A stretch of DNA of 64,000 nucleotides, from assembly GCF_025336525.1 (NCBI RefSeq), contig NZ_JAOCZP010000002.1:372001-436000 (forward strand), read 5' to 3'. This stretch comes from Chelativorans salis. GTDB taxonomy: Bacteria > Pseudomonadota > Alphaproteobacteria > Rhizobiales > Rhizobiaceae. Below are positions 6,802-37,861 of the stretch, one piece after another. The notes under the pieces are model-generated. The model was not told the origin of the DNA, did no database searches, and saw only the letters and a program-made list of their open reading frames with translations. Position 1 is the first letter of the stretch; each line of letters opens with the position of its first letter. The position numbers and the translations under genes were made by a program.

Positions 6802-6805
<4 letters not shown>
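5615..6805 (-). CDS. TonB-family energy transducer
   Basis: 396 aa. It has a cytoplasmic N-terminus of about 70 residues, one membrane segment (LSLGLIVALSLSAAVHAAVL, about residues 72-91), a long Pro/Glu/Ala/Lys-rich periplasmic spacer and a C-terminal TonB domain of about 90 residues (YPSGAARQG, ALSITIDRRGRFSGAQL, TITFSVTLRFKQ). TonB couples the proton motive force, via ExbB/ExbD, to outer-membrane receptors. Placed in the same operon as the B12 receptor, it is likely the dedicated partner of that receptor; exbBD are not in this window. The start codon overlaps the stop of the ATPase gene (ATGA at 6802-6805). Confidence 0.85.
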
Positions 6806-7583
<778 letters not shown>

Positions 7584-7584
<1 letters not shown>

Positions 7585-8573
7585 CAGAACACCTCCCGGC
7601 GCGCGCGCACGACCAGCCACAGGAAGAAGGGGGCGCCGATGAGGGCGGTGAGCACGCCGACATTGAGTTCACCAGCCGGCAGGACGAGGCGCACGGCGAC
7701 ATCCGCCGCGAGCAGCAGGGCAGCGCCGCCGAGGCCCGCCGGCAGGAGGAGGCGGCTCGGCATGCGGGTGGTCAGCGGGCGGATGAGATGCGGCACGACG
7801 AGGCCGACGAAGCCGATGGTGCCGGCGACCGCCGTTGCCGCGCCGACCCCCAGCGCCACGCCGGCGACGATGAGGAAGCGCGTGCGCGCCATGTGGATGC
7901 CGAGGCTGGCGGCCGCCTCCTCGCCGAGCGACAGGGCGTCTATGGCGCGGGCCGACAGCGCGATGAGCAGCCAACCCGCAGCCATCAGCGGGAGCGCGAG
8001 CCAGACATGCGCGATCGACCGGTCCTTGAGGGAGCCGAGCAGCCAGAAGATGATCTCGTAGCTGGCGAAGGGGTTGGGCGAGAGGTTGAGCACCAGGGCT
8101 GTGAGGGCGCCGGCGAGGCTGGAAAGTGCCACGCCGGCGAGGATGAGGGTGAGTGTGGAGCCGTTGCGGGCGGCGAGCGCCATCAGGAGGAGGACGGCGG
8201 CAAGGGCGCCGGTGAGGGCGCCGGCCGGAAGCGCGTAGAGCGCGCTGCCGGCAAGGCCGGAATAAAAGACGGCGACGGCGCCGAAGGCGGCCATGGCCGA
8301 GACGCCGATGATGCCGGGTTCGGCCAGGGGGTTCCGCAGGAAGCCCTGCAGTACGGCGCCGGCCATACCGAGCGTGAAGCCGATGCTCAAGCCCAGCAGG
8401 GCGCGGGGCAGGCGGATTTCGCGCATGATGATCGCCGCCGCCTCGCCACCGCCGGCGAAGAGGCCGCGCACGCTTTCCGAAACGCCGAGTTCGGCGGGGC
8501 CGACGGCGAGCGAGGCGAGGAAGAGGGCGAGCGCCAGGAGGGCGAGCGCCAGGTTGAGGGCGAGGGGCTTCAT
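7584..8573 (-). CDS. btuC: cobalamin-type ABC transporter permease (FecCD family)
   Basis: 329 aa, nine to ten hydrophobic helices, normal for the family. Typical FecCD landmarks are visible: RLPRALLGLSIGFTLGMAGAVLQGFLRNPLAEPGIIGV in the first third (in part), the GGEAAAIIMREIR stretch before it, and GTIGFVGLVVPHLIR near the C-terminus. It forms the inner-membrane channel, expected to work as a dimer with two ATPase subunits. Overlaps both neighbours by ATGA, the usual sign of tight translational coupling. Confidence 0.87.
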
Positions 8574-9610
8574 GGCGATGCCTCGCAGGATGCGATCTCC
8601 TGGCGCAGCGCGTTAAGCGCCTTTACCGCCTCCAGCACCGCCGGGCCGCCGCAGGACCAGCTGCCGCGCGGCACGAAGGCGCCGATGCGGGTGGCTGGCA
8701 GCGCACGAAGCGCCGGATGGCGCGGCACGAAGGCGCCGAGGGAGGGGGCGTCGCCCTTACTGCCGGGCACGATGACGATGTCGGGCTTTTTCTCCACCAC
8801 CAGTTCCAGCGGGAAGGGGGCCATGCCCTCGACGCCCTCCTCAGTGGCCAGATTCTTGAAGCCGGCGGCGGTGAGCACAGAGTCCGCCAGCGTGCCCTTG
8901 CCCAGCGCCACGCCGTTCTGCTCGTAGGCGAGGGCCGTCGGGCGCGGCCCGCACTGGCTGGCCTCCACCTCGGCAAGGCCTGCCTCGAACTCGGCGGCCA
9001 TCGCCTCGGCCTCTTCTTCGCGGCCCAGCAGCTTGCCCATGCGGCGGATGTCGCGGGGAATGGTGTCGAGGGTCTGCACGAAGCTGAATTCCTCGACGCG
9101 GAAGCCTAGCCGCTTCAGGAGCTGCGTGGTGTTGTGAAGCGTGTAGGTGCCGGTGACGACGAGGTCGGGCCGCGCCAGGAACACATCCTCCGCCATGCCG
9201 CGGTTGACGGGATAACGCTCGGCCTCGCGGTGGAGCGGCGAAAGGTCCGGCTCACGCGCCAGGAAGGAGACGGAAACGAGCTGGCCGGGGGCGGCGAGCG
9301 CCATGGCGAGCTGGTCCGTACACACGTTGAGCGACATGACGCGGGCGGGGGGCTGGGCGCCGGCAGGGGCTGTCAGCGTTGCAAGCGTGAGGAGGGCGGC
9401 CGGGAGGACCGAGGCGCGGTCTCCCCCCTTGAGGGGGAGATGGCTGCGCAGCAGCCAGAGGGAGGCGCCCGATCGAAGTGTGCGGCGCAGGCGGGGAAGG
9501 TAAGCGTTGAGTACGGCCGAGAGGACCCCACCCGTCCGGCCGCCTTTGGCGGCCGTCCACCCTCCCCTCAAGGGGGAGGGGAAGCGCGAGGGGGCGGCCT
9601 TTTCACTCAT
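8570..9610 (-). CDS. btuF: cobalamin-type ABC transporter substrate-binding protein with repeat-derived N-terminus
   Basis: 346 aa. From about residue 90 it is a normal BtuF/FecB-like periplasmic binding protein (MSLNVCTDQLAMAL, DLVVTGTYTLHNTTQLLKRL, FPLELVVEKKPDIVIVP). The N-terminus is odd: residues ~11-63 are the in-frame translation of a palindromic repeat (positions 9421-9581), and the hydrophobic signal segment (VLPAALLTLATLTAPAGAQ) comes only at residues ~68-86. The start ATG overlaps the stop of the receptor gene (ATGA at 9607-9610), which supports this start; no ATG, GTG or TTG lies between the repeat and the signal core. Whether the delayed signal peptide still exports the protein is not known from sequence. 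Confidence 0.82.
   Translation of the reverse strand: MSEKAAPSRFPSPLRGGWTAAKGGRTGGVLSAVLNAYLPRLRRTLRSGASLWLLRSHLPLKGGDRASVLPAALLTLATLTAPAGAQPPARVMSLNVCTDQLAMALAAPGQLVSVSFLAREPDLSPLHREAERYPVNRGMAEDVFLARPDLVVTGTYTLHNTTQLLKRLGFRVEEFSFVQTLDTIPRDIRRMGKLLGREEEAEAMAAEFEAGLAEVEASQCGPRPTALAYEQNGVALGKGTLADSVLTAAGFKNLATEEGVEGMAPFPLELVVEKKPDIVIVPGSKGDAPSLGAFVPRHPALRALPATRIGAFVPRGSWSCGGPAVLEAVKALNALRQEIASCEASP
9421..9581. repeat. palindromic repeat element, copy A, inside btuF
   Basis: 161 bp bounded by CTCCCCCCTTGAGGGGGAG on one side and CCTCCCCTCAAGGGGGAGG on the other, with inner inverted repeats (GGCTGCGCAGCAGCC; CCGCCTTTGGCGG). It shares most of its length with copy B at 36869-37018, including CGAGTACGGCC-like and GACCCCACCCGTCC blocks. 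The copy lies entirely within the N-terminal coding part of the btuF-like gene and keeps the frame open. Confidence 0.85.
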
Positions 9611-11484
9611 GGCCCAAACTTAGCCTTGAAGCCGGCGAAGACGGAGAAGTCCGGTGTGCCGAAGCCGCGGGCGGTCTGGTACTCCTGATCGAGGATGTTT
9701 TCGGCACGCACGTAAAGCTCCGTGTCTTCCGTGGGTTTATAGGCGATCTTGGCGTTGAGGAGGACGTAGTCATCGAGAGATGCGCCATCGGTATCCACCG
9801 TGTCGACGGCGATCTTGCCGGCGGCGGAGACGGTCCATTTCTCGGCCGGTTTGTAGGCGGCGGTGAGGCCGACGGCGTGGCGCGGGATGCGCGGCAGGCG
9901 CGTGCCATTCTGGTCCTCGGCGTGGGTATAGGTGTAGGAGCCGCCGAGTGAAAGCTGACTATTGATCCGGTAGGCGAGCGAGGTTTCGACGCCGCGGGAT
10001 TTCGAGGTGCCTTCGATGCGCTGATATTGGCAGGGCCAAGCGCCAACCGGATAGCAGTCGATCATGTCATCGACCGTCAAATGGAAATAGGTTACGTCGG
10101 CGATTAAGTTGCCGCCCAAAAGTGTCTGCTCCACACCCAGGTCAAAGCTAAAACTAGTCTCCGGTTCCAAGTTTGGATTGCTGACCGTATCTCCAAACAT
10201 TTCGTAGAGGCTCGGTGCCCGAAAGCCCGTTCCGACCGATGAGTGGATTCTCGTCCTGCTGTCTGCAAAGAGGTAGGAACCAGTGGCGCGATAAGTGGTA
10301 TAACCTCCAAACTCTGAATGCTGATCATGACGGATGCCGGCTGTGACCGTGAAGTTTTCGATTGGTGCGGCTGTTAGCTGTCCCCAAATGCCGGTTATGG
10401 AAAAGTCTTCTGTTACGTCCGGAGAAAATTCCGGGGAACCAGGAAAAAATGCTTCCTGACTCTCGTAGTCAGCTCCGGCTTGGACCGTAAGCTGTTCATT
10501 GACGTCGAAGGCGCCTTGGTAGTCAGCCTTATAGCGTTTTCCCTCGAATACTGTGTCGCCGAATTCCGTGCTGATGGTCCGCTCCAGATCGAAAGCTTGT
10601 ACTGAAAAGGTATTGCGAAAGCGCCCGTCCATGAGATCGAGATTGAAACCAGCGCGGCCAGCTAGCTGGCGAGATAGATTCTTGTTGAAGAGATCATCGA
10701 CTGGAGGTGTAACAAAGCCATTATCGAACTCCGCCTCCGCGTCGATGAAAAGCGCCGACCCAAACACCGAGAACATATCCGAAAATTCGTGCTCTCCGGC
10801 GACATCCAGCGTGACGTTCTCATAGCCGTCGCGTTCTGCGCCGGCGTCCGCCGCCGAGATACCGTCGGTGTGGAAGCCGGTGGCGTTGAAGGAGAGGCGG
10901 GAGCCGCCGGCGGCGGCGCGCAGGCCGTAGGAGGCGCGGGCGGTGCCGTGGGAGCCGCCTTCGCCGGCGAGGAGGTGGGTTACGCCCGGATCGATGTCGC
11001 CCAGGGTCGACATGCTTATGACGCCGGCAATCGCGTCGGAGCCGTAGAGCGTGCTTTGCGAGCCGCGCAGGACCTCGATCGAGTCGATGCCGCTTGAAAG
11101 GAGATACTGATAGGAGGTTTGGACCTGCGTGTTGGTGGGGTCGGAGATGTCGATGCCGTTATAGAGCGTCTTGACGTAGCGGCGCGGGGCGCCGCGGATG
11201 GCGAGGCTGGTTTCCGAACCGGGGCCGGGCGAGGTGATGGAGACGCCCGGCACCTGGTTGAGGTAGTCGGTCACCAGCGGCTGCGCCTGCTCCTCGATCT
11301 CTTCACGGTCGATGCGTGTGACAGACGATCCGGTCGTCGACAGTTCCATCGGCGTCCGGTTCGGTGTGATGACGATCTCGCCCAGTTCGAGATCCTGGGC
11401 GGCGGCCGGTTGGCCGGCGGCGAATGCCAGCGAGATGGCTGAAACGGTGATGAGGAAGAAGGATTTGTTCAAAGATGCGATCAT
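9607..11484 (-). CDS. btuB: TonB-dependent vitamin B12 receptor (BtuB-like)
   Basis: 625 aa. Signal peptide of about 29 residues (ends AAAQ), a TonB box region (LGEIVITPNRTP), a plug domain (about 45-155: QVPGVSITSPGPGSET, SIEVLRGSQSTLYGSDAIAG) and a 22-strand-type barrel ending in a C-terminal aromatic-rich strand (DFSVFAGFKAKFGP). Length and the short, BtuB-like barrel fit a corrinoid receptor. The specificity call rests on the cobalamin riboswitch directly upstream. I start at the ATG at 11484, which has GGAGGGG upstream; the frame is open further but runs through the riboswitch. First gene of a coupled operon running to tonB. Confidence 0.9.
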   Translation of the reverse strand: MIASLNKSFFLITVSAISLAFAAGQPAAAQDLELGEIVITPNRTPMELSTTGSSVTRIDREEIEEQAQPLVTDYLNQVPGVSITSPGPGSETSLAIRGAPRRYVKTLYNGIDISDPTNTQVQTSYQYLLSSGIDSIEVLRGSQSTLYGSDAIAGVISMSTLGDIDPGVTHLLAGEGGSHGTARASYGLRAAAGGSRLSFNATGFHTDGISAADAGAERDGYENVTLDVAGEHEFSDMFSVFGSALFIDAEAEFDNGFVTPPVDDLFNKNLSRQLAGRAGFNLDLMDGRFRNTFSVQAFDLERTISTEFGDTVFEGKRYKADYQGAFDVNEQLTVQAGADYESQEAFFPGSPEFSPDVTEDFSITGIWGQLTAAPIENFTVTAGIRHDQHSEFGGYTTYRATGSYLFADSRTRIHSSVGTGFRAPSLYEMFGDTVSNPNLEPETSFSFDLGVEQTLLGGNLIADVTYFHLTVDDMIDCYPVGAWPCQYQRIEGTSKSRGVETSLAYRINSQLSLGGSYTYTHAEDQNGTRLPRIPRHAVGLTAAYKPAEKWTVSAAGKIAVDTVDTDGASLDDYVLLNAKIAYKPTEDTELYVRAENILDQEYQTARGFGTPDFSVFAGFKAKFGP

Positions 11485-11624
11485 GATGCCCCTCCGCAGT
11501 ATCCCGATTGATGCTGGAGGGAACGGACGCCTTTGTCGGCCGCAGTTTCCGCCAGCGATGACACGTCGTCCGCCACCACTGCGAAAACCACAGCCCCGGA
11601 AGCTGCCCGCATCCGGACGGTGAC

Positions 11625-11812
11625 GACCCGAGGCAGGTTTCCTGGCTCGCGCTTCTCCGGCTTTCCCGCCTTCCCAGGCCGCTTCAAGCCCAGTGGCATG
11701 TGTGGAAGCCTCGGCGCTCACAGTTGCGGGAGCAGCTACGGTTGGGGCGGAATTGGCCCTCCCGTATTCCCTTTTAACCCCGGCGGCAGGCCGCCCGGGC
11801 ACCTCTGGCACG
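11625..11812 (-). promoter_or_regulatory. cobalamin riboswitch upstream of btuB
   Basis: On the minus strand the region contains the hallmarks of a B12 riboswitch in order: GGTGCCC near the 5' end, AAAAGGGAA at about 11767-11775, an intermediate GCAACTGTGAG stretch, the B12 box GCCACTG (11691-11697), and the 3' block GAGCCAGGAAACCTGCCTC (11633-11651). It should bind adenosylcobalamin and lower expression of the uptake operon when B12 is sufficient. About 140 bases separate it from the btuB start; they hold the expression platform, whose mechanism I could not resolve. The other 230 bases up to the divergent importer show no gene. Confidence 0.93.
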
Positions 11813-12044
11813 AGGGCAGGATTATCAATCGCCCCCGATGCCGTCAATCAGTCGGGCGGGCGCTGCGCAGCAGTGTCGGGGGCGGCGATTTTCCGGCTTG
11901 GCGGGAACAGACATGTTCGTGCCGCAGAATCGTTGGAGGCTATCGCTTTTGCGTCATTTCTGTCGTATTTCCGGCGTTCCGGAGCGTGTTCAGGAAGCAC
12001 ACTGCGGGAGCAATTTGTGGGGGACGGTTTCACAGCAAGTTATT

Positions 12045-13883: not shown

Positions 13884-14921
13884 GTGCTGAGCTTCATCAT
13901 TCGCCGCCTCGGCGTCATGGCGCTGACGATGCTGTGCCTCTCGCTGGTGGTGTTCTTCCTCATCAATCTGGAGCCCAACTTGAAGAAGCTGGCCATCAGC
14001 CAGCTCGACATGCGCTCCTCGGCGGAAGACCTTGAAAGCTGGCTGCAGAGGAACGGCTACCGGCAGAACTTCTTCGTGCGCTACGGCCAGTGGCTCGGCG
14101 TGATGCCGAAACAACCCAGCATCGACCCGGAAACGGGGGTGGCGAGTCCGCGCTTCGCCTATTGCCGCGAGCCGGCGGAGGCACGCTATTCCGGCGTTCT
14201 GCAGGGCGATTTCGGCTGCTCGACCAAGTTCAAGGTGCCGGTGGCGCAGAAGCTCGTACCGGCGCTCGGGGCGACCGGGATATTGATGTTCTGGGTGATG
14301 GCGGTGATGGTGCCGGTGTCGCTTCTGATCGGCGTGCTTGCCGGCATGCGCGAGGGCAGCCGTACGGACCGAAGTCTCTCGGTCGCCTCGATCACCACCA
14401 CGGCGACGCCGGAATATATCTCGGGTGTCATCTTCACCGTCGTTTTTGCCTCATGGCTCGGCTGGCTCAACGGTTCGGCCGCCTCGGCCACCAACCAGGG
14501 CGTGACCTTCTACAATTTCACGCTGCCGGTGATGACCATGGCCATCTACGGCATCGGCTACATCGCCCGCATGACGCGGGCCTCGATGGTCGAGGTGATG
14601 ACGCAGCAATATATCCGCACCGCCCGGCTCAAGGGGCTGAGCTTCAACGCGGTGGTGCTGAAACATGCGCTGCGCAACGCGCTGATCGCGCCGTTCACCG
14701 TCATCATGCTGCAGTTTCCATGGCTTTTGACCGGTGTGGTCATCGTCGAGGTGATGTTCCGCTATCAGGGTTTTGGGTTCACGCTGGTGGAGGCGGCGGC
14801 CAACAACGACATCGACCTGCTTCTCGCATGCTCGCTGGTGTCGGTGCTCGTGGTGCTTTCGACGCAGCTCATTTCCGACATTGGCTATGCGCTGCTCAAT
14901 CCGCGCATCCGCGTGCAGTAG
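13884..14921 (+). CDS. peptide-type ABC transporter permease (DppB-like)
   Basis: 345 aa from a GTG at 13884, which has GGGGAA just upstream and yields the usual DppB start (VLSFIIRRLGVMALTM). An in-frame ATG at 13866 would add six residues. Six membrane segments are visible, with the ABC permease loop near residues 240-260 (QYIRTARLKGLSFNAVV). A long periplasmic segment between helices 1 and 2 (about residues 40-120) is larger than in E. coli DppB. Forms the inner-membrane channel with the next gene's product. Confidence 0.88.
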   Translation: MLSFIIRRLGVMALTMLCLSLVVFFLINLEPNLKKLAISQLDMRSSAEDLESWLQRNGYRQNFFVRYGQWLGVMPKQPSIDPETGVASPRFAYCREPAEARYSGVLQGDFGCSTKFKVPVAQKLVPALGATGILMFWVMAVMVPVSLLIGVLAGMREGSRTDRSLSVASITTTATPEYISGVIFTVVFASWLGWLNGSAASATNQGVTFYNFTLPVMTMAIYGIGYIARMTRASMVEVMTQQYIRTARLKGLSFNAVVLKHALRNALIAPFTVIMLQFPWLLTGVVIVEVMFRYQGFGFTLVEAAANNDIDLLLACSLVSVLVVLSTQLISDIGYALLNPRIRVQ

Positions 14922-35033: not shown

Positions 35034-35894
35034 CTATCCACCGCGGATGGACGGATGCCAGAACGTGACGGCCCGCTCGATCTGGGCGACAAGGCCGTAG
35101 AAGAGCGAACCGGCCAGGGCGGCGACGGCGATCTCCGCCCACACCATGTCGATGTTCATCCGTCCCACCTCGGTGGAGATCCTGAAGCCCATGCCGACGA
35201 TGGGCGTGCCGAAGAACTCGGCTACGATGGCGCCGATCAGCGCCAGGGTGGAGTTGATCTTCAAGGCATTGAAGATAAAGGGCGCAGCCGCCGGCAGGCG
35301 CAGCTTGAAGAGCGTCTGCCAGTAGGAGGCCGCATAGGTGCGCATCAGGTCGCGATCGATGGCCGAGGAGGCCGAGAGGCCGGCAACCGTGTTCACCAGC
35401 ATGGGAAAGAAGGTCATGACGACGACGACGGCGGCCTTCGACGGCCAGTCAAAGCCGAACCACATGACCATGATGGGGGCGATGCCGATGATGGGGAGTG
35501 CGGAGACGAAATTGCCGAGCGGCAGGAGCCCGCGCTTCAGGAAGGGCGAGCGGTCGATGGCGATCGCCGCCAGGAAGCCCGACCCGCAGCCGAGCGCATA
35601 GCCGATAAGCACCGCCTTCAGGAAGGTCTGGCGGAAGTCGGCCCACAGGGTGGGGACGGAGCCGACGATGCGATCCCAGATCATGGAGGGAGGGGGGAGG
35701 AGCACCGTCGGCACGTTGAGCCCGCGCACGAGGCCCTCCCAGACGACCAGCAGCGTTATCCCGAAGATGGCCGGGACGAGAAGGGAGAGGGCGCGGCGGG
35801 CAAGTGGTGCGCGCGGATTGTGCCGCACCAGCCACTCGTTGAGCGCCCAGGCGCCCGCCCAGAAGACAAGGGCACCGGCGACCGCCGCATTCAT
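35034..35894 (-). CDS. ABC transporter permease (SsuC/TauC type)
   Basis: 286 aa, six hydrophobic helices with the permease loop (MRTYAASYWQTLFKLRLPAA, about residues 190-209). Together with the overlapping permease gene upstream it forms a heterodimeric inner-membrane channel. The ATG overlaps that gene's stop (ATGA at 35891-35894). Confidence 0.87.
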   Translation of the reverse strand: MNAAVAGALVFWAGAWALNEWLVRHNPRAPLARRALSLLVPAIFGITLLVVWEGLVRGLNVPTVLLPPPSMIWDRIVGSVPTLWADFRQTFLKAVLIGYALGCGSGFLAAIAIDRSPFLKRGLLPLGNFVSALPIIGIAPIMVMWFGFDWPSKAAVVVVMTFFPMLVNTVAGLSASSAIDRDLMRTYAASYWQTLFKLRLPAAAPFIFNALKINSTLALIGAIVAEFFGTPIVGMGFRISTEVGRMNIDMVWAEIAVAALAGSLFYGLVAQIERAVTFWHPSIRGG

Positions 35895-36829
35895 GGCCGT
35901 GCTCCCATGCGCGCCATGACGAGGCGCTGGCCGAGACCGACCAGGGCGACGAGGCTTGCCGCGAGGGCCGCCGCCATGAAGAGGGCGGCCCAGATCTGGA
36001 TCGTCTGGCCGTAGTAGGAGCCGGCGAGCAGGCGTGCGCCGAGGCCGGCGACGGCACCCGTCGGCAATTCGCCGACGATGGCTCCCACGAGGCTGATGGC
36101 GACGGCCACCTTCATGGAGGTGAAGAGAAAGGGAAGCGCCGACGGCCAGCGCAGCTTGAAGAAGGTCTGCGTGCGGCTCGAATTGTAGGTGCGCATCAGG
36201 TCGAGCTGGATCGCTTCGGGGCTCCTGAAACCTTTCACCATGCCGACGACCACGGGGAAGAAGGAGAGATAAGTGGAGATCAGCGCCTTCGGCAGGAGGC
36301 CCGAGAGGCCGATGGCGTTGAGCACGACGATGATCATCGGCGCGACGGCGAGGATGGGGATCGTCTGGCTGGCGATCACCCAGGGCATCACCGACTTGTC
36401 CATGGCGCGGTTGTGGACGATGCCGACAGCGAGCAGGACGCCGAGCGTGGTGCCGATGGCGAAGCCGAGCAGGGTGGAGGAGAGGGTGATCCAGGCGTGG
36501 TTGAGAAGGCTGCGGTTGGAGGTGGGGCGCACCTCCACGGTGGTCTTCCACATCTCGGCCAGCACCTGGTGCGGCGCCGGCAGCACCGGCCTCTCCTGAG
36601 CCATGGTGTCGCGCACGAGATCGGCCGCCGTCCATTCGGTGTCTGCGCGCTGGTACAGGCCAATCTGCCAGGGGGCGTTGAGGTAGACGGTGAAGCCGTA
36701 CCAGATGAGGACGATGGCGGCGACGACGATGGCGATGGGCAGCGCCTTGCCGTCTGCCAGGCGCCGAAAGACGGTGCCCGTGGCGGCGGATGCGGAGCCG
36801 GGAGCGGCGATGGGAGTGGAGGCGGTCAT
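35891..36829 (-). CDS. ABC transporter permease (SsuC/TauC type)
   Basis: 312 aa. It has an N-terminal hydrophobic helix (IAIVVAAIVLIWYGFTVYL), a periplasmic segment of about 60 residues and five more helices; the permease loop is at about residues 210-230 (LMRTYNSSRTQTFFKLRW). The ATG at 36829 has GGAGG eight bases upstream. A repeat element (36869-37018) separates it from the ATPase gene. Confidence 0.87.
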   Translation of the reverse strand: MTASTPIAAPGSASAATGTVFRRLADGKALPIAIVVAAIVLIWYGFTVYLNAPWQIGLYQRADTEWTAADLVRDTMAQERPVLPAPHQVLAEMWKTTVEVRPTSNRSLLNHAWITLSSTLLGFAIGTTLGVLLAVGIVHNRAMDKSVMPWVIASQTIPILAVAPMIIVVLNAIGLSGLLPKALISTYLSFFPVVVGMVKGFRSPEAIQLDLMRTYNSSRTQTFFKLRWPSALPFLFTSMKVAVAISLVGAIVGELPTGAVAGLGARLLAGSYYGQTIQIWAALFMAAALAASLVALVGLGQRLVMARMGARP

Positions 36830-36868
36830 GAATACGTCCTCCGGGGCTGCGTCATGGCAGTAGCGGTT

Positions 36869-37018
36869 CTCCCCCCTTGAGGGGGAGATGGCCGGCAGGC
36901 CAGAGGGGGCTGCCCGGTCGAAGAGCGGGACGCTGATGAGCGCCGAGTACGGCCGGGGTGACCCCACCCGTCCAGCCGCCTGACGGCGGCTGTCCACCCT
37001 ACCCTCGAGGGGGAGGGG
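36869..37018. repeat. palindromic repeat element, copy B
   Basis: 150 bp with outer arms CTCCCCCCTTGAGGGGGAG and CCCTCGAGGGGGAGGGG and inner palindromes (GGCCGGCAGGCC; CAGCCGCCTGACGGCGGCTG). It shares ordered blocks with copy A inside btuF. It lies between the ATPase and permease genes of one importer, where it could shape the transcript. Confidence 0.85.
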
Positions 37019-37042
37019 AGGCGCCGGCGCTCTATGCCGCGC

Positions 37043-37861
37043 TCACTCATCGCTCATCCCCGCCCTCAGGCCCTCGCGTACGCGGTGGGCGATCTCAAGA
37101 AACTCCGGCGTCTCGCGAATGTCGAGCGGGCGCTCTTTCGGCAGTGTCGATTCGATGACGTCCGTCACCCGGCCGGGGCGCGGCGACATGACGACGATGC
37201 GGGTGGAGAGATAGACCGCCTCCGGGATCGAGTGCGTGACGAAGCAGATGGTCTTGTTCGTGCGCGCCCAGAGCTCCAGCAACTGCTCGTTCAGATGGTC
37301 GCGCACGATTTCGTCCAATGCGCCGAAGGGTTCGTCCATCAAGAGAAGATCGGCGTCGAAGGCGAGTGCGCGGGCAATCGAGGCGCGCTGCTGCATGCCG
37401 CCGGAAAGCTGCCATGGGTATTTGCGCTCAAAGCCGGTGAGGTTGACGAGATCCAGCGTGCGGGCGACGCGTTCTCGCCGCTCTCGGGCCGAATAGCCCA
37501 TGATCTCCAGCGGCAGGGCGACGTTCTTCTCAATGGTGCGCCAGGGGAAAAGGCCGGCGGCCTGGAAGACGTAGCCATAGGCGCGGGCCCGGCGGGCGGC
37601 CTCGGCAGTGAGCCCGTTGACGCGGATGTCGCCCGCCGTCGGCTGCTCCAGGTCGGCGATGACGCGCAAGAAGGTGGTCTTGCCGCAGCCCGACGGGCCG
37701 ATGAAGGAGACGAACTCGCCGCGTCCGACAGAAAGATCGACATCAGAGAGCGCCCGGACGGGGCCGTCGGCGGTCTCGAAGGTGAGGCTCAAGGCCTTCG
37801 CCTCGACGACAGGGGAGGTGGTGGCCGCGGCTGGCTGGAGCTTGCTTGCGGGGGCGTTCAT
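37043..37861 (-). CDS. ABC transporter ATP-binding protein (SsuB/TauB type)
   Basis: 272 aa. Walker A GPSGCGKTT at about residues 55-63, YVFQAAGLFPWRT (Q loop), signature LSGGMQQR, Walker B LLLMDEPFGALD and switch FVTHSIPEAV are intact. It energises the two permeases encoded just downstream. The gene is 39 bases after dihydropyrimidinase, which ties the importer to the pyrimidine genes. Confidence 0.9.
   Translation of the reverse strand: MNAPASKLQPAAATTSPVVEAKALSLTFETADGPVRALSDVDLSVGRGEFVSFIGPSGCGKTTFLRVIADLEQPTAGDIRVNGLTAEAARRARAYGYVFQAAGLFPWRTIEKNVALPLEIMGYSARERRERVARTLDLVNLTGFERKYPWQLSGGMQQRASIARALAFDADLLLMDEPFGALDEIVRDHLNEQLLELWARTNKTICFVTHSIPEAVYLSTRIVVMSPRPGRVTDVIESTLPKERPLDIRETPEFLEIAHRVREGLRAGMSDE

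Follow-up and report, generated by a model that had tools for sequence, protein, structure and literature searches.

Hairpin repeats, in frame and probably translated, near the start of btuF-like genes of Chelativorans salis and other Hyphomicrobiales

Introduction

Palindromic repeats that code for protein are best known from Rickettsia and Wolbachia. In the Hyphomicrobiales, the RIME is a mosaic intergenic repeat of about 100 bp. The Bru-RS elements of Brucella, 103-105 bp long, are also intergenic (PMC2267715, cited here, like the papers below, from extracts of the text). Genic palindromes are already known from Rickettsia, Wolbachia, enterobacteria and the REP families (PMC3733652, PMC2229807, PMC10969869, PMC2759123). 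The Rickettsia palindromic elements (RPE) and the Wolbachia coding palindromes are hairpins of ~105-146 bp that occur both in intergenic DNA and, in frame, within protein genes unrelated to each other (PMC2229807, PMC10969869); the RPE studies Ogata 2000, 2002 and 2005 are referenced in PMC2229807 / PMC10969869. Intragenic REPs (GTAG- and CGTC-tagged) occur occasionally in ORFs, and in the recB genes of X. campestris and X. oryzae they occupy roughly the same position (PMC3733652). The enterobacterial RU/ERIC elements are MITE-like and can fuse in frame with ORFs, forming part of the signal peptide in YPO1552 (Delihas 2007; PMC2229807, PMC2759123). Extracts of PMC2267715, PMC2873474 and PMC12306157 contain no report of an in-frame btuF repeat, and our limited literature search found no report of such btuF inserts or of the hairpin-element family described below in coding DNA.

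Here we analyse a window of 64,000 nt from Chelativorans salis, whose positions are used throughout, in which an earlier note had placed a palindromic repeat inside a btuF-like coding region. We argue that the insert is very probably selfish or structural repeat DNA, retained solely where it can be translated.

Results

The btuF-like gene and its operon

The gene order is btuB-F-C-D-like, with a cobalamin riboswitch at its head:

11615..11821, minus strand: cobalamin riboswitch upstream of btuB (RF00174, 100.2 bits, gathering score 31.5)
9607..11847, minus strand: btuB-like receptor gene (TonB-B12, 257.8 bits, below the curated cut-off of 599.7; ORF from TTG as listed, true start not settled)
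8570..9610, minus strand: btuF-like gene, 346 aa, with the repeat in the signal-peptide n-region (Peripla_BP_2, E 1.2e-16)
7584..8573, minus strand: btuC-like FecCD permease, overlapping the btuF stop (PF01032, E 3.6e-82)
6802..7620, minus strand: btuD-like ABC ATPase (PF00005, E 1e-25)

The ATGA overlap that had been noted for btuF is confirmed: the ORF begins at ATG 9610, which the btuB stop overlaps, and its own stop overlaps the btuC start. The protein matches Pfam Peripla_BP_2 at 61.3 bits (cut-off 27.5) and NCBIfam BtuF at a weak 30.9 bits (cut-off 234), so that the name BtuF-like rests mainly on context; the riboswitch, TonB-B12-like receptor, FecCD permease and ATPase make BtuF a likely, though not proven, identity. 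Its mature part is nearest to those of C. xinjiangense (94%) and C. alearense (93%). In an AlphaFold2 model built on 9 sequences, residues 1-34 and 37-82 have pLDDT < 50 and the mature part is ordered.

A dispersed family of mosaic hairpin elements

The repeat has two copies in the window:

9416..9587, minus strand: repeat copy A, within the btuF-like gene at about residues 9-65, similar to copy B and to other genomic copies
9420..9442, plus strand: L stem of copy A (motif scan; gene-strand fold)
9560..9581, plus strand: R stem of copy A (motif scan; gene-strand fold)
36863..37024, strand not given: repeat copy B, between two minus-strand ORFs resembling genes for an ABC ATPase, which ends at 37043, and for a permease, both named by eye without a family search

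As had been noticed, copy A lies within a gene and shares ordered blocks of sequence with copy B: in a pairwise alignment, slightly wider than the 9421-9581 first given, 136 of 174 positions (78%) are identical, with an E of 3e-36, or about 1e-33 when the search space is the window. When the window was scanned for the stem motifs, only copy A and, for the L stem, copy B were matched. The permease beside copy B has its likely ATG at 36829, beyond the element, with GGAGG 8 nt upstream, and since both come after copy B, the latter is best read as non-coding spacer. The permease-like ORF itself (35891-36997, minus strand) has its frame open through most of copy B, and automatic annotation could thus wrongly lengthen the protein into the repeat.

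The word palindromic, used in the earlier note, needs qualification. Copy A is moderately structured and folds as several separate hairpins (z -2.7), whereas the related element in the btuF of C. xinjiangense forms one near-perfect long hairpin (z -16.8). This hairpin, at L063:1360-1570, sits in coding sequence 30 nt downstream of the start codon of btuF and has a predicted energy of -190 kcal/mol.

A DNA search of the C. salis genome with copy A gave 56 matches at E <= 10, many of them short or weak, and a stem pattern of 18 letters, with at most two mismatches allowed, matched 16 + 16 times there, against 0 + 1 for the reversed control. Merging the best 30 of the 56 DNA-search matches with 30 of the 32 pattern matches gives at least 40 element loci, a lower bound (40 of 64 first-look candidates scored in the DNA search), in which mosaic stems occur as LL, LR, RR and several single stems. 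Elements of at least 135 nt occupy 29 of these loci, and full elements measure 142-216 nt with two or more stems. Copy A is thus a member of a dispersed family of mosaic hairpin elements, found mostly outside recognisable genes.

Queried with an LL element of C. salis, six of ten Hyphomicrobiales genomes match at E <= 1e-5; counted over both strands, Mesorhizobium sp. L-8-3 has 77 matches and Nitratireductor pacificus 57. The searched genomes of Brucella, Ochrobactrum, Shinella daejeonensis and Aquamicrobium defluvii gave 0 matches at this threshold. Among plasmid records, copy A matches 6 (1 from Sinorhizobium) and the LL query 4 (0 from Sinorhizobium), and some Shinella plasmids are among those matched. 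The LL element in the btuF of C. xinjiangense has 76 matches in its own genome (both strands counted), and eight further copies there are 88-94% identical to it, which suggests recent spread in this species; the nine aligned copies have inverted ends in common, as judged by eye, and no clear target-site duplication was seen among them.

The Rfam whalefall-1 RNA was rejected as an identity for the elements: it scored 20.7 bits against a gathering threshold of 37, all 17 of its weak genome matches stay below the cut-off, and equally weak ones occur in 7 of 14 control genomes. Elsewhere in the window, Rfam Cis52_sRNA matches 14495-14676 on the minus strand at 92.1 bits (gathering 56).

Inserts in the btuF n-regions of relatives

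A btuF gene is present in 14 of the 16 genomes of the genus examined (labelled G000 for the genome of the window, G001 for the one taken, by sequence, as C. alearense and G003 for the one likewise taken as C. xinjiangense, among others). When 30 BtuF genes were scored by eye, 11 had repeat-like DNA, all in the same n-region, and 19 were insert-free. The 11 comprise 5 of 14 within the genus (G000, G001, G003, G012, G015) and, outside it, the insert-like n-regions of L113-L118 among 16 loci (L111-L126); L127-L184 (58 loci) and L075-L090 were read as N-terminal translations, outside this scoring. The earlier note had described a single gene, and while the btuF-like gene of C. salis does carry the repeat, several btuF genes do so.

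It had also proposed a comparison with orthologues, and some relatives indeed lack the insert: from the btuB stop to the mature motif, G004 has 110 nt and G000 266 nt. Over the same interval, seven of the 13 genus genomes measured have 98-125 nt, and the other insert-bearing genomes have 206 (G001), 389 (G003), 182 (G012) and 251 nt (G015). G014 has 199 nt with no repeat-like sequence and a later ATG, and in G009, where the mature motif was not detected in this measurement, the n-region reads as insert-free. The orthologues thus do not all share one N-terminus devoid of similarity to the repeats.

Many inserts recur in their own genomes, the counts taking in the btuF copy itself and, for palindromes, often both strands: 56 matches in G000 (E <= 10), 76 in G003, 69 in L115, 16 in L116 and 5 in G015. 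The insert of L113 is a 58-bp repeat with 12 own-genome matches, and the same genome yields no match to the LL or the L118 query. Half elements or a pair of halves place the insert DNA of L114 at two other sites of its genome and that of L118 at one. In the L117 genome, the L118 query gives six matches at four places, one of them where its own btuF insert is expected, and blastn of the L117 insert against the elements of the C. salis genome gives 35 matches. G001 and G012 have short inserts, with 12 and 1 short weak blastn matches to those elements, and the G015 insert gives 15 weak matches in G012. The inserts of G001, G012 and L117 look like remnants, and the inserts together stem from at least two repeat families with no detectable similarity to each other.

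Mapped onto a tree of the 30 mature BtuF sequences, presence or absence of the insert requires six changes, at least four of them forced by well-supported branches, and the differing element types within the G000/G001/G003 clade suggest further, uncounted events. The n-regions of G003 and G001 differ by 183 nt (61 codons). G001 was dropped as a clean empty site against G003, since in the aligned copies the outer arms may themselves be part of the element; gain and loss are therefore indistinguishable in this pair, and the G001 allele may have arisen from the G003 element by deletion. A stem-motif scan of 89 btuF loci matched 5 (15 matches, against 2 in the shuffled control); being stringent, it misses remnants and was not used for the insert counts. 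As far as these comparisons go, repeats have been taken up several times at one btuF site in Hyphomicrobiales, with and without inserts among close relatives, a recurrence that describes the btuF loci alone and carries no claim of enrichment or a hotspot.

Such recurrence at one junction, by at least two repeat families, is what would be expected if the elements were kept for a function, as coding-region mRNA hairpins that lower BtuFCD relative to BtuB or protect the btuB mRNA, and the very stable C. xinjiangense copy would suit such a role. Against this stand the 19 insert-free genes, the remnant-like inserts of G001, G012 and L117 and the modest structure of copy A, and we regard this explanation as unlikely.

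Other genic sites

A search for further genic copies, also suggested in the earlier note, found one in an acyltransferase linker. Pfam was run on 30 of the 56 listed stop-to-stop ORFs of at least 200 aa that overlap elements, comprising every one of the 27 that span an element plus 3 of the 29 edge cases; six had a family and 24 had none. The one clear genic case among them is L004:578-2500 (G000:C9 983233-985155), a dihydrolipoamide acyltransferase paralogue (E2) in which a single frame runs through the lipoyl domain, the element, the E3-binding domain and the catalytic domain. The linker of this G000 paralogue is built of repeat DNA. The same paralogue carries a different (RR) element in the lipoyl/E3-binding linker in G001 and G003, the G003 copy being cut by the end of the locus, and about the first 20 residues of the G004 linker are Ala-rich, with the repeat absent. 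Between G000 and G001, the catalytic domain has a dN/dS of 0.12. For the Mur ligase, DctQ, BPD_transp and NicO ORFs, the position of the domain indicates that the gene probably starts after the element. The L040 ORF overlapping an element has FG-GAP repeats from residue 124.

The BtuF of C. xinjiangense has in addition a repeat-coded C-terminal extension, with the ATGA overlap with btuC kept:

~768-1130 bases downstream of where the mature BtuF motif begins, L105 (C. xinjiangense): C-terminal extension

From mature motif to stop, this protein has 376 residues, against 230-262 (one 265) in the other loci of a set of 94.

Reading frame, start codons and selection

As the earlier note had it, copy A keeps the btuF frame open, and it codes for about 57 residues (9-65), close to the ~53 then claimed, ahead of the signal-peptide core. 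The accompanying claim that no other start codon separates the repeat from the signal holds, as G000 has no ATG, GTG or TTG there before the core; its wording passes over one TTG (9571-9569) and three CTG that lie in frame within the repeat. Over a stretch that begins at the start codon (5 loci) or one or two codons later (6 loci) and stops 45 nt short of the mature motif, all 11 insert loci have an open gene frame, against 6 of 22 for the other forward frames (Fisher p 6e-5, an optimistic value given the shared ancestry of G001/G003, L114/L115 and L117/L118).

It could be argued that the repeat is an untranslated leader, with btuF starting after it or inside it (at TTG 9571 or a CTG) and the open frame incidental. 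N-terminal REPs are commonly non-coding, with translation starting downstream, according to extracts of PMC3733652; copy B offers a precedent in this window, open in the permease frame yet followed by the GGAGG and ATG. Element frames are also often open anyway (56% of the six-frame readings of the 29 full elements, with 0 to 6 open frames per element, against 48% in flanking controls), at least one further frame is open in five of the 11 insert loci, and in eight of the 11 the insert contains, or is followed by, an in-frame ATG, GTG or TTG (G003, G012, G015, L113, L114, L115, L117, L118), to which the TTG inside the G000 repeat may be added. However, G000, G001 and L116 have no ATG, GTG or TTG from the insert to the core, and in six loci, including the five longest stretches, the gene frame is the sole open one. 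G000, G001 and G003 retain the overlap of the btuF start with the btuB stop (for L114 and L115, the start comes after the btuB stop), and the E2 insert, sitting between domains where there is no start to choose, must be read. An untranslated leader is thus an improbable account, and the repeat in btuF is probably translated, from ATG 9610.

The mature part has a dN/dS of 0.18-0.22 among G000, G001 and G003, which indicates purifying selection. In the n-region common to G001 and G003 the value is 0.57 on 17 changes, and polarisation with an outgroup places 12 synonymous and 7 non-synonymous changes on the G000 branch and 0 and 3 on the G001/G003 stem; the stem counts and the n-region value together point to little protein-level constraint in the n-region.

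Discussion

The identity of the repeat, the open frame, the recurrence of inserts, their absence in relatives and the constraint on the mature part are the established components of our reading, in which repeat DNA persists within a gene where it can be translated. The remainder would run as follows. An element would have arrived at the btuB/btuF junction, perhaps by transposition, or else by recombination or copying, and since the overlapping genes leave no spacer, the insertion would have fallen into the first codons of btuF. Copy A would have been retained because it is in phase and free of stops, so that the mature protein and its signal-peptide core stay joined to the coupled start. Its extra residues would occupy a tolerant, probably disordered stretch and should depart with the signal peptide, on the assumption that the long leader is cleaved and the insert is neutral. 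The same selection could cover the other btuF n-regions, the C-terminal tail of BtuF and the inter-domain linker of the acyltransferase, with elements that reach overlapping-gene junctions or linkers presumably kept only when the frame stays open.

A bolder variant would make the btuF start a convergent landing site, where unrelated palindromes are repeatedly recruited into the gene for the way in which their hairpins tune the BtuB:BtuFCD ratio in an operon without intergenic space. A selfish repeat would then act as a translated control element, but we hold this to be distinctly improbable. Chance likeness of GC-rich sequence is refuted: although GC-rich stems can match randomly and many of the 56 matches are short and weak, neither the A/B score and the reversed-pattern control nor the eight closely similar C. 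xinjiangense copies would be expected from it.

On our reading of retained, translatable repeat DNA, near relatives with and without inserts make it possible to test how repeats enter genes, how frame is kept and whether a protein is secreted with a repeat-coded leader of 50-100 residues. Without data, the N-termini annotated for such genes should not be trimmed, nor should they be trusted.

Comparison with known systems

Terminal inverted repeats, seen by eye in the nine G003 copies, are a feature held in common with MITEs. RIME and Bru-RS, which are Hyphomicrobiales repeats of about 100 bp with a mosaic or palindromic make-up, also come to mind, both compared by description. The mosaic L/R stems recall RIME, again by description and not by its sequence; for Bru-RS, our own LL element, which is not itself a Bru-RS query, had no match at E <= 1e-5 in either of the two genomes searched, G067 (Brucella gallinifaecis) and G068 (Ochrobactrum sp. 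Q0168). A REP unit is 20-40 bp long, whereas the full elements here reach 142-216 nt with two or more stems. The RU/ERIC elements come from unrelated hosts, and the product there is a putative new exported protein, whereas here it is a conserved transport-type protein with its own core.

The RPE, compared by description and not by sequence, offer the parallel that the earlier note had drawn, and the shorter n-regions of relatives, the other inserts at the same site and the second gene strengthen it. The RPE trait of a conserved peptide does not extend to the elements studied here: neither such a peptide nor one preferred frame was found, the left ends of the L114 and L118 inserts being read in different frames, and element ends that take different frames in different btuF genes leave no single conserved peptide. 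The lineage is also another one, and one site here has been reused by several repeat types. Both systems nevertheless consist of a many-copy palindrome, somewhat longer here (142-216 nt), and both place in-frame copies inside unrelated genes, here a btuF-like gene and a dihydrolipoamide acyltransferase paralogue.
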